From assembly GCA_015068155.1 (NCBI GenBank), contig SVLC01000018.1:1-35169 (forward strand): DNA of 35,169 nucleotides. The letters are read 5' to 3'. The notes beneath the pieces are model-generated. The model did no database searches. It was given only the letters and a program-made list of their open reading frames with translations, and had not been told where the DNA came from. The position numbers and the translations under genes are program-made. This document shows, one piece after another, positions 31,627 through 34,952 of the stretch. The number at the start of each line of letters is the position of its first letter. Positions within the stretch are counted from its first letter, which is position 1. The stretch comes from Oscillospiraceae bacterium (GTDB taxonomy: Bacteria; Bacillota; Clostridia; Oscillospirales; Oscillospiraceae).

Positions 31627-33291
31627 TTACACGGGAATTTCTTCATCGGGTGTTTCCGGTTCTTCCGAAGCGGAAACAAACTGATCATTTTCCCAGGTGC
31701 CTTCTGCCACGGTACCATCGGCATAGTAACAGATACCCTGGCCATGGCGTTTGCCACGGAGGAATTCACCCACATAACGGTCACCGTTGGCATAGGTCAT
31801 TTCGCCTTCGCCATCCTGCATACCGCTTTTCCAGTTACCGGTATAGGTAGAGCCATCGGCCCAAACCATGGTGCCCTGACCTTTGATGGAACCTGCAGAG
31901 AAATTACCCTTATAAACATCGCCGTTGGCGTAGGTCATTTCGCCATAACCGTTGGGATTGCCGTTTTTCCACTGACCGGTGTAGACATCGCCATTGGAAT
32001 AGGTGCAGGTTCCCTGGCCGGAACGCTGGCCATTCAAAAATTCGCCTTTGTATAGCTGCCCGTTTCTGGCAGTATACATTTCGCCATAGCCATTCTGCTT
32101 GCCATCCTTCCACGCACCGGTATAAGTGTTGCCACTGGGCCAGGTCATGGTACCCTGACCGCTGTATTGACCGTTTTCCCAATTGCCGGTGTAGGTCTGG
32201 CCACTGTTCCAGGTATAAGTACCCTCTCCGTGGGGGACGCCGCTGACCATATAGCCGGTGTAGGTGCCGTTATCAAATTCTTTGGTGCCATAACCGGTCA
32301 GCTGATCCGCCGCCAACTGCTCCTGCAAGTATTCTTGTGTGATATGGTTGGTAGCCCGCAAAAACGCTTCTGCATCGGGGCCAACCGTTTCGGTCCAGCC
32401 TATGAGCAGCGCGGTAAATTCGTCCACTTCACCCTTTGCGCCCAACAGCATCAGACTTTTGCTCAAATATGTTTCCGCTGCTTCCTCCGTCTCCTTCGGC
32501 ACGTAAAAATCCACCGCGCCAAAAACATGGCACATCTCGTGTCGCAGCGCATTCAGTTCCGAGCTGTACAGCACAACATTTTCAAATGTGGACTTACCGG
32601 TGGAAGTGGATGCATAGGCTCTGCCCTCTCTGTTCAAAACAAATACCACAGGCGCATTGTCGACCCGGTAATGGGATTCCAACAGATCCTGATTGTAGAA
32701 AGCATCCGCAAATCCTATATTCTTCAGCGCGGCATACGCCCAGGTGCGCTTTTTATCAGATTGATCAAATTTCAGGTTGATCTTTGTGGAATAATATGTG
32801 ACCTCCGCGTCCAATTCCGCGCCGTATGCAGCCGCTTCCTTTTCCAGGCTGGCAATTTCCTTATCGATAGTGGCCACTGCATTCTCCCGCGCGGTATCAT
32901 CCCATGCGCTGATGGTATCATCCAGGAAGATCACGCAAACCATCATCTTACCGGTCATAGCCTCGCAATAACCGGCATCCTTACCCCGCAGATACACATT
33001 ACTGCGCAATTCCTCCGGGATCGGATTGGGGTCTTCGGGAACGGTGGGCTGAGTAGGAACCGTAGGCTGGCTGGGTTCCGTAGGGACCGTAGGCGCAGTA
33101 GTGGGTACGGTGGTGGGAACCGTGGGTTTGGTGGTGGGATTTGTGGTGGTGGGTTGCTGGGCAGTGGGCGTACTGGAAACACCGGGTACAGCGGTGGTCG
33201 GCTGCTCACCTTCGCAGCCTGCCAAGCACATTAGCAAAGCCATCACCGCCAAAATCCACACAAATACCCTTTTGACGCTGTATTTTCTCAT
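31627..33291 (-). CDS. Putative metzincin-like lipoprotein with C-terminal MORN-repeat array
   Basis: Lipobox 'LLMCLAGC'; T/P linker; 'LRHEMCHVFGAVDFY'; 'KSLMLLG'; repeats such as YTGNWENGQYSGQGTMTWPSGNT (8 plus a partial). Confidence 0.8.
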   Translation of the reverse strand: MRKYSVKRVFVWILAVMALLMCLAGCEGEQPTTAVPGVSSTPTAQQPTTTNPTTKPTVPTTVPTTAPTVPTEPSQPTVPTQPTVPEDPNPIPEELRSNVYLRGKDAGYCEAMTGKMMVCVIFLDDTISAWDDTARENAVATIDKEIASLEKEAAAYGAELDAEVTYYSTKINLKFDQSDKKRTWAYAALKNIGFADAFYNQDLLESHYRVDNAPVVFVLNREGRAYASTSTGKSTFENVVLYSSELNALRHEMCHVFGAVDFYVPKETEEAAETYLSKSLMLLGAKGEVDEFTALLIGWTETVGPDAEAFLRATNHITQEYLQEQLAADQLTGYGTKEFDNGTYTGYMVSGVPHGEGTYTWNSGQTYTGNWENGQYSGQGTMTWPSGNTYTGAWKDGKQNGYGEMYTARNGQLYKGEFLNGQRSGQGTCTYSNGDVYTGQWKNGNPNGYGEMTYANGDVYKGNFSAGSIKGQGTMVWADGSTYTGNWKSGMQDGEGEMTYANGDRYVGEFLRGKRHGQGICYYADGTVAEGTWENDQFVSASEEPETPDEEIPV

Positions 33292-33317
33292 ATTACTGTC
33301 TCTCTTTTACTCTTAAA

Positions 33318-34952
33318 TTAGGGTGTTGCTTCATCGTTCGGTTCACCAGGCTCCTCCTGCACAAGCTTATCGTTCTCCCAGGTGCCCTTGATAACGGTGC
33401 CATCGGCTTTATAGACTGTTCCGCTGCCGTGGCGCTTGTCATTCTTGAATTCGCCTTCGTAGCGCTCCGATGTGCTGCCATAGTACAGTACGCCATTACC
33501 GGTTCGCTTGCCATTGACCCAGTCGCCGGTATAATAGGAACCGTCCGTCCAGGTCATGGTGCCCTGACCGTGGCGCAACGCATTGAGCCAACCGCCTTCA
33601 TAAACTTCACCGGTTTTCCAGGTGTACTTACCCTGGCCCGACCAGATGCCGTTCACCCAATCGCCGGTGTAGGTATCACCGTTGGAGAAAACATGGGTTC
33701 CCTGGCCGTGGCGCTGGCCTTTGCTGAATTCGCCGGTGTAGGTTTCCTTGCCGCCGGGATAAACCAAGGTGCCGGTGCCGTCATATTGGCCGTCTTTCCA
33801 CTGACCCTTATAGGAATACCCGTCGGGTCTGCTGATCTCGCCATATCCGGACATCTGACCGTTATCCCAGCCGCCGGTGTATTCTACGCCATTATCCCAG
33901 ACGCAGGTGCCCTCGCCATGAGGCACACCTCTGACCATGTCTCCAGTGTAGGTGCAATCATCAAACCGTTTCGTGCCGTAGCCGGTCATCTGGTCACCCT
34001 GAACAGAGTCCATTAAATACTCTTCGGTAATATGATTGGTGGCCCGCAAAAACGCCTCAGCCTTGGGACCCAGTACATCGGTCCAGCCGATGAGATAAGC
34101 GGTCAGCTCATCAACCACACCTGTGCGGCTGTCAAGCATAATACTTTCAGGCAAAAATTCCTCCGCCGCTTCCTGGGTTTCATCCGGCAGATAGAAATCG
34201 ATGGCGCCGTACACATGGCACAGTTCATGGCGAATGGCGCGGGGCTCCGAGGAATACATCAATACATATTCAAACTGGTCGCCGCCACTGGCAGTAGCGG
34301 CATACGCTCTGCCTTCCCGGTTCAGGATAAACACCACCGGCGCGCTGTCTACCCCATAGTGGTTCTCCAGGAAAACTGCATTGGTATAGGCCTGGGCAAG
34401 GCCATGGGCCATCAGCGCGGAACGGGCCCAAAGCATATTCGGATCGTTCTGATTATAGGAAATACCGATCTTGGATACCAGATAATTGACCTCCACTTCC
34501 AGCCGCGTGCCGTAGGAAGCTGCTTCTTCGGACAGCTTCGGCAGATCCGCATCCAGCGTAGCCTTCATGGCCGCAACTTCCGCGTCGGACCAAGCGCTGA
34601 CCGAATCGCTGAGGAACACCACGGTGATCATCATCTTGCCGGTCATTCTTTCACAGAATCCGCTGTCCATCCAGCCGAGGTAAACATTGTTTTCCAGTTC
34701 TTCCGGAAATGCCGGCTGCGTCGGTTCCGTAGGCGGCTGCGTCGGCTGAGTGGTCGGCGCAGTAGATGGCGCCGTTGTCGGAAGGGTCGGGAGGGTGGTG
34801 GTAGACGCCGGGGTGGGTTGGGTGGGCATTGCCGTTGTAGACGGATCCGTTGTAACAGTGGTAACAGTGGACGGCAGATCCACGGTTGCACAGCCAACCA
34901 AAATTGCCAGCAAGATCATCCACAAAAATAGATGCAAAACAGATTTTTTCAT
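33318..34952 (-). CDS. Putative metzincin-like lipoprotein with C-terminal MORN-repeat array
   Basis: Lipobox 'LLAILVGC'; T/P linker; 'IRHELCHVYGAIDFY'; 'ESIMLDS'; repeats such as YTGDWVNGIWSGQGKYTWKTGEV (8 plus a partial). Confidence 0.8.
   Translation of the reverse strand: MKKSVLHLFLWMILLAILVGCATVDLPSTVTTVTTDPSTTAMPTQPTPASTTTLPTLPTTAPSTAPTTQPTQPPTEPTQPAFPEELENNVYLGWMDSGFCERMTGKMMITVVFLSDSVSAWSDAEVAAMKATLDADLPKLSEEAASYGTRLEVEVNYLVSKIGISYNQNDPNMLWARSALMAHGLAQAYTNAVFLENHYGVDSAPVVFILNREGRAYAATASGGDQFEYVLMYSSEPRAIRHELCHVYGAIDFYLPDETQEAAEEFLPESIMLDSRTGVVDELTAYLIGWTDVLGPKAEAFLRATNHITEEYLMDSVQGDQMTGYGTKRFDDCTYTGDMVRGVPHGEGTCVWDNGVEYTGGWDNGQMSGYGEISRPDGYSYKGQWKDGQYDGTGTLVYPGGKETYTGEFSKGQRHGQGTHVFSNGDTYTGDWVNGIWSGQGKYTWKTGEVYEGGWLNALRHGQGTMTWTDGSYYTGDWVNGKRTGNGVLYYGSTSERYEGEFKNDKRHGSGTVYKADGTVIKGTWENDKLVQEEPGEPNDEATP

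Follow-up and report, generated by a model that had tools for sequence, protein, structure and literature searches.

The window analysed here, 35,169 nucleotides long, is an entire contig of an Oscillospiraceae genome. Its minus strand carries, at 30603-34952, three tandem paralogous genes (A, B and C) separated by gaps of 26 and 31 bases; metK lies downstream on the opposite strand, and the contig ends 217 bases upstream of the ATG of gene A. A preliminary description of this DNA had reported two paralogs here, each ending in MORN repeats. Both were recovered as intact open reading frames with eight full units and a partial one, but the set is larger than was claimed, as a third member that has no MORN repeats (gene C) had been overlooked. 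Genes A and B encode proteins that are 53% identical over their full length, and C, which terminates after its protease domain, is 41-42% identical to A and B.

33318-34952, minus strand: gene A, intact open reading frame (lipobox, Thr/Pro linker, metzincin-like domain, eight MORN units plus a partial unit)
31627-33291, minus strand: gene B, intact open reading frame (lipobox, Thr/Pro linker, metzincin-like domain, eight MORN units plus a partial unit)
30603-31595, minus strand: gene C (lipobox LSGC at Cys27, Thr/Pro linker, metzincin-like domain, without MORN)
34979-35008, minus strand: promoter-like site TTGACA-18-TATTCT with TG ahead of the -10, from a consensus scan
30568-30599, minus strand: terminator-like hairpin of 14 pairs with a T run, directly downstream of gene C

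For gene A, the ATG at 34952 was preferred as start over the GTG at 34964 because AGGAGG abuts the latter. The promoter-like site lies approximately 27 bases upstream of this ATG, and it is solely its position that speaks for it, as consensus matches in the region were no more numerous than in shuffled sequences. Since this site precedes A and the hairpin comes right after C, the three genes may form one transcription unit. A search match also suggested a decayed MORN tail past the stop codon of gene C; this candidate was rejected, as the frame holds only the terminator hairpin and metK, with no remnant of repeats.

The metzincin-like domain

The proteins share a domain of about 235 residues, which the preliminary description had called zinc-protease-like on the strength of an HExxHxxGxxD motif. 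The motif, like the lipobox reported with it, is present in both A and B, and the reading as a protease now draws on a predicted fold as well as on invariant catalytic residues.

34008-34709, minus strand: metzincin-like domain of gene A, about 235 aa (alignments, AF2 model, Foldseek)
34191-34229, minus strand: zinc-binding motif of gene A, HELCHVYGAIDFY (sequence)
32320-33021, minus strand: metzincin-like domain of gene B, about 235 aa (alignments)
32503-32541, minus strand: zinc-binding motif of gene B, HEMCHVFGAVDFY (sequence)
30621-31322, minus strand: metzincin-like domain of gene C, with the motif HEICHIYGAEDFY at 30801-30839

No Pfam or NCBIfam model describes this domain (NCBIfam matches were weak and far below cut-off). 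A Pfam-A search up to E 10 returned no match for the domain of A, and none of nine members matched M7. When nine relatives with identities as low as 25% were aligned, 17 columns proved invariant. They comprise all seven fixed positions of HExxHxxGAxDxY, along with a Met, a GW pair and others; the motif residues and the downstream Met are likewise invariant across 25 divergent homologs. Later homolog sets were chosen by motif pattern, and the check was therefore repeated with the profile alone. This kept HExxHxxGxxDxY in 76 of 80 distinct homologs, the other four comprising two without the motif, one with Asn in place of Tyr and one truncated where its contig stops. Two residues that played no part in selection, the Met and a Gly, occur in all 69 homologs compared. 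Asp is the third zinc ligand in 69 of 69 (a set whose selection allowed Asp or Glu only) and in 76 of 80 in the profile-only check. In A, the Met lies 30 residues past the first His of the motif and is a candidate Met-turn methionine, and the HExxHxxG/NxxH/D motif of the metzincin clan MA(M) is present in A, B and C.

The AF2 model of the A domain (pLDDT 92.1, pTM 0.90) had metzincins as its leading Foldseek matches in the PDB (fragilysin, snake-venom and ADAM/ADAMTS enzymes; best E 5e-4), with snapalysin at rank 38. TM-scores to solved metzincins were mostly 0.35-0.46, i.e., weak. A profile search against the PDB also returned Rem/Rad/Gem GTPases (best E 9e-4), which were rejected as chance hits, because the zinc motif and the fold are both missing from GTPases and it is metzincins that the predicted structure resembles. 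An Asp third ligand combined with a downstream Met is the pattern of snapalysin and igalysin (PMC12237041, PMC3890501), and on the motif, the Met and the predicted fold taken together we read the domain as an Asp-type metzincin. It looks like an uncharacterised family of that type, the evidence for the metzincin assignment being the motif and a weak fold similarity, and we do not assign it to M6, M7, M64 or M10. Catalysis is supported by both sequence and predicted fold.

Several further features of the domain were observed. In A, B, C and three relatives, the residue next to the second zinc His on its N-terminal side is a Cys (HExCH). Another Cys, ahead of the first strand, is found in 23 of 26 MORN-bearing members, with Ser in several other members; given this Ser, and with no prodomain detectable, this Cys is at most a candidate cysteine switch. 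Two homologs without MORN (L052 and L062) have lost the HExxH motif and kept the rest of the domain, and are probably natural inactive forms.

MORN arrays and surface anchors

In A and B, the protease domain is followed by a MORN array.

33357-33950, minus strand: MORN array of gene A, eight full units plus a partial unit (Pfam PF02493)
31672-32262, minus strand: MORN array of gene B, eight full units plus a partial unit (Pfam PF02493, predicted fold)
34890-34952, minus strand: signal peptide of gene A with lipobox LVGC (Cys21, counted from ATG 34952)
33214-33291, minus strand: signal peptide of gene B with lipobox LAGC (Cys26)

The profile search proposed with the preliminary description gave strong matches, placing both proteins in the family: PF02493 matched eight stretches per protein (E 2.9e-48 for B and 1.5e-43 for A; 159 and 144 bits versus a cut-off of 22.5). 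The same register had been claimed for both arrays. This holds for the 23-aa spacing of the units and for one 24-aa step at an identical place in A and B, but A has a second 24-aa step of its own. A half unit (TGYGTK.FD) lies ahead of the first full unit, and the partial unit after the array reads YADGTVAEGTWENDQF in B and KADGTVIKGTWENDKL in A. These two genes were the only ones with MORN in the searched genome (assembly 82% complete).

A PDB sequence search led to MORN1, junctophilin and radial-spoke proteins. Protein B was modelled with AF2 from its protease domain through to the C-terminus (mean pLDDT 91.9). Successive hairpins make up the C-terminal half of this model, and Foldseek superposes them on solved MORN1 with TM-scores of 0.85-0.92, depending on the target, and an rmsd of 1.7-2.4, consistent with the beta-hairpin rod of the MORN family. 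The two-domain model has a pTM of 0.65, and the relative placement of protease and MORN, including any position of the rod beside the active-site cleft, is thus uncertain.

The lipid anchor outside the cell that had been proposed for A and B is borne out and extends to C, as LVGC, LAGC and LSGC each stand behind a hydrophobic segment, the layout of a predicted lipoprotein. Homologs carry other anchors instead. Among metzincin-MORN proteins, some have an N-terminal membrane segment (L065, L066, L070 and L077), others combine a signal peptide with Dockerin_1 (L068 and L073; Pfam E 2.7e-19 and 5.3e-16), and one carries SLH (the third gene of L076; Pfam E 1.6e-29). Dockerin and SLH modules act outside the cell. 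Overall, a simple hydropathy rule, not a trained predictor, called an export segment at the N-terminus of 22 of the 26 distinct proteins with the metzincin-MORN pair; dockerin is present in five and SLH in one. Four homologs (L046, L087, L088 and L115) have no visible export signal and may be cytoplasmic or exported otherwise, so the metzincin-MORN pair is not always extracellular. From these sequence features, extracellular placement is well supported for the window proteins and for most, not all, of the family.

The background originally given for this location was that MORN repeats are known mainly from intracellular or membrane-associated proteins; that they are mainly intracellular is a weak premise in this lineage. 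In a MORN search of 149 genomes of the order, most returned loci encode just one hydrophobic segment, located ahead of MORN and positively charged on its N-terminal side; this topology would place the repeats outside in most of the sampled loci. Extracellular MORN thus seems common in this order, judging from predicted topology, and the location less odd than assumed. Some membrane-MORN loci of the order follow a kinase-like domain or SLH-like repeats. L133 and L139 both have a membrane segment and then MORN, and L133 begins with a protein-kinase-like stretch, such that its repeats may serve a kinase as sensor on the outside. Two loci from genomes of the window's genus (L013 and L024) have an N-terminus that reads TIR-like, followed by MORN arrays, without a protease.

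Distribution and possible role

In the order, 48 of 396 sampled genomes (about one in eight) have the protease domain, as do 8 of 392 in the class sample and 2 of 399 in the phylum sample; these counts include the window's own genome each time and were obtained with differing profiles. The domain is patchy within the window's genus, and most of the named relatives are Clostridia MAGs from herbivore guts; members of the family in Prevotella and Chloroflexi are without MORN. The combined architecture, whose distribution the preliminary description had marked for checking, recurs in 26 of 69 distinct relatives and is therefore more general than stated there, with arrays of about 2 to 8 or more units. 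On a tree of the 69 domains, MORN requires 6 changes versus 21 with shuffled labels. Only 2 changes are forced by the starred branches, so the tree does not fix how many MORN fusions took place. It places gene C beside A and B (99/95 support) among relatives that otherwise bear MORN, and C has therefore most likely lost its MORN tail.

Tandem copies also recur: G313:C57 has two, and at L076:3815-8658 three metzincin-MORN genes stand in a row, of which two carry lipobox-like signals and the other SLH domains. All five dockerin proteins fall into a single clade (100/99). In three genomes (G338, G313 and G361) and two fragments of a fourth (G326), the gene immediately upstream of the dockerin-metzincin-MORN gene, in the same orientation, also encodes a dockerin protein. 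Where complete, these upstream proteins are 1130-1338 aa long, and the three tested had BspA-type LRR_5 and Dockerin_1 by Pfam. The pair reads signal peptide-LRR_5 (BspA)-dockerin and then signal peptide-dockerin-metzincin-MORN at L128:1553-6679, L129:807-6312 and L130:2144-6989. Cohesins were found in only two of four dockerin-rich genomes. The window genome itself was rejected as a cellulosome member, having no cohesin and one dockerin (G000), and docking via dockerin would apply to relatives only. In a genome of the window's genus (L029:350-2353, G031), BspA-type LRR_5 repeats are fused before the same metzincin-like domain, without MORN. Such neighbours and fusions link the protease to surface repeat proteins. 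No LRR_5 neighbour of A-B-C lies within reach in the window; a separate open reading frame with a TTG start (3584-5488) has a TPR-like stretch and LRR_4 repeats. A PHROGs scan gave no result.

Partners of the LRR_5 kind are typical of adhesins, and they raise the question of whether these proteins are surface adhesins or receptors on a retained metzincin scaffold instead of working proteases. The two homologs that kept the domain without HExxH fit this idea. We nevertheless regard it as improbable, as the zinc ligands, Glu, Tyr and Met are intact in A, B, C and all complete MORN-bearing homologs seen.

We lean, by a little, towards a surface-tethered protease whose MORN repeats serve as a platform for binding a partner or substrate, a reading drawn from sequence and models. 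Under this proposal, A, B and C would be lipoproteins anchored on the outside of the membrane in a Gram-positive bacterium of the gut, as their lipoboxes suggest, with a flexible Thr/Pro-rich stalk holding out a metzincin-type zinc endopeptidase. Judging from the invariant residues and the predicted fold, two His and one Asp would hold its zinc, the Glu would act as the catalytic base and the Met would lie under the site. In A and B, the rod-like MORN beta-sheet directly after the protease would offer a platform for binding proteins or peptides, used either to catch a substrate or to dock the enzyme to a surface partner, possibly by dimerisation as in MORN1. Candidate substrates would be extracellular proteins, whether they come from feed, from neighbouring microbes, from host secretions or from the surface of the cell itself.

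Whether MORN repeats bind lipids or proteins is disputed (PMC7725318). Solved MORN-peptide complexes are among the Foldseek matches (6jle, MORN4/Myo3a; 7rxq, junctophilin-2 with a CaV1.1 peptide), and MORN1 proteins dimerise via their C-termini without binding vesicles (PMC7725318). Because of these complexes and of dimerisation in the absence of vesicle binding, protein is favoured over lipid, glycan or peptidoglycan as the ligand. Of the ligands first guessed at, a partner protein thus stands on the solved structures, but glycan and peptidoglycan do not, as no domain of that kind was found in the window proteins. The same C-terminal dimerisation would suit MORN as an assembly device only, one that joins the lipoproteins into dimers or into a lattice at the surface, with no part in substrate choice. 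A spacer or lattice would tolerate the variation in array length more easily than a specific site would, and paralog C retains its protease after MORN loss; the peptide complexes speak against this reading, which we consider rather unlikely.

In a broader form, for which we have only tentative confidence, the relatives would be unnamed Asp-type metzincins of gut Clostridia, with MORN rods as extracellular specificity or docking modules on interchangeable anchors (lipid, membrane helix, dockerin or SLH); those with dockerins would work in a surface complex next to a BspA-type LRR protein. Taken singly, the components are all known in kind; neither their combination nor the protease family seems to have been described in the open literature that was searched. 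Our check for an already characterised family of this architecture found none, and searches for MORN together with metalloprotease, dockerin, cellulosome or metzincin returned no relevant paper. The domain adds a protease family that has no Pfam or NCBIfam model and, if the proposal is true, a repeat usually discussed as intracellular is put to work outside the cell. An extracellular MORN-tailed enzyme would also offer a simple readout, as removal of the tail or its exchange between A and B would show lost cutting or binding, with paralog C, which lost MORN naturally, as a built-in control.

Comparison with known systems

The top fold matches of the domain, fragilysin (M10C) and the adamalysins (M12B), have His as third zinc ligand. 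The domain differs from both in that the HExxHxxGxxH pattern is absent, similarity by TM-score is weak, as given above, and no prodomain is detectable. It shares HExxHxx(x)GxxD and a downstream Met with the Asp-ligand metzincins snapalysin (M7), thuringilysins (M6) and igalysins (M64), but neither Pfam nor NCBIfam matched it to one of the three, so that membership of the snapalysin profile, for example, does not apply. The igalysin IgAse also has a Tyr two residues past the Asp (PMC12237041, PMC3890501). The igalysin motif is HExxHxxxGxxD, with an extra residue (PMC12237041), unlike the HExxHxxGxxD found here, which sets the domain apart from M64. The mini-zincins (M94) and Asp-zincins MA(D) are defined without a Met-turn (PMC3890501) and differ from the domain by its invariant Met.

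The likeness to IgAse invites a host-directed function, in which the proteases would cut mucosal proteins such as IgA or mucin, as does the Thomasclavelia ramosa enzyme. IgAse, too, is a gut metzincin bound to the membrane, and its Asp third ligand is likewise followed by a Tyr (PMC12237041); in addition, the herbivore gut origin of most named relatives would suit such a role. The extra residue of the IgAse motif is absent here, however, and the window proteins showed no domain for binding mucin or immunoglobulin; we therefore give this function little credence.

Regarding the repeats, MORN2-domain proteins of Fusobacterium occur in outer membrane vesicles (PMC10434195). They resemble the present proteins in being bacterial, MORN-like and outside the cytoplasm, but belong to another repeat model and are not reported to carry a metzincin domain. 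In the MORN-heliorhodopsins of Firmicutes, PF02493 is similarly fused to another domain, but the repeats are placed in the cytoplasm, MORN being expected to be intracellular (PMC8612252). The established MORN proteins (PF02493), such as MORN1 of Toxoplasma, Plasmodium and Trypanosoma and the junctophilins, share the 23-residue repeat and the predicted beta-hairpin rod. MORN1 and the junctophilins are intracellular and eukaryotic, whereas the array here would sit on an exported lipoprotein, behind a protease.
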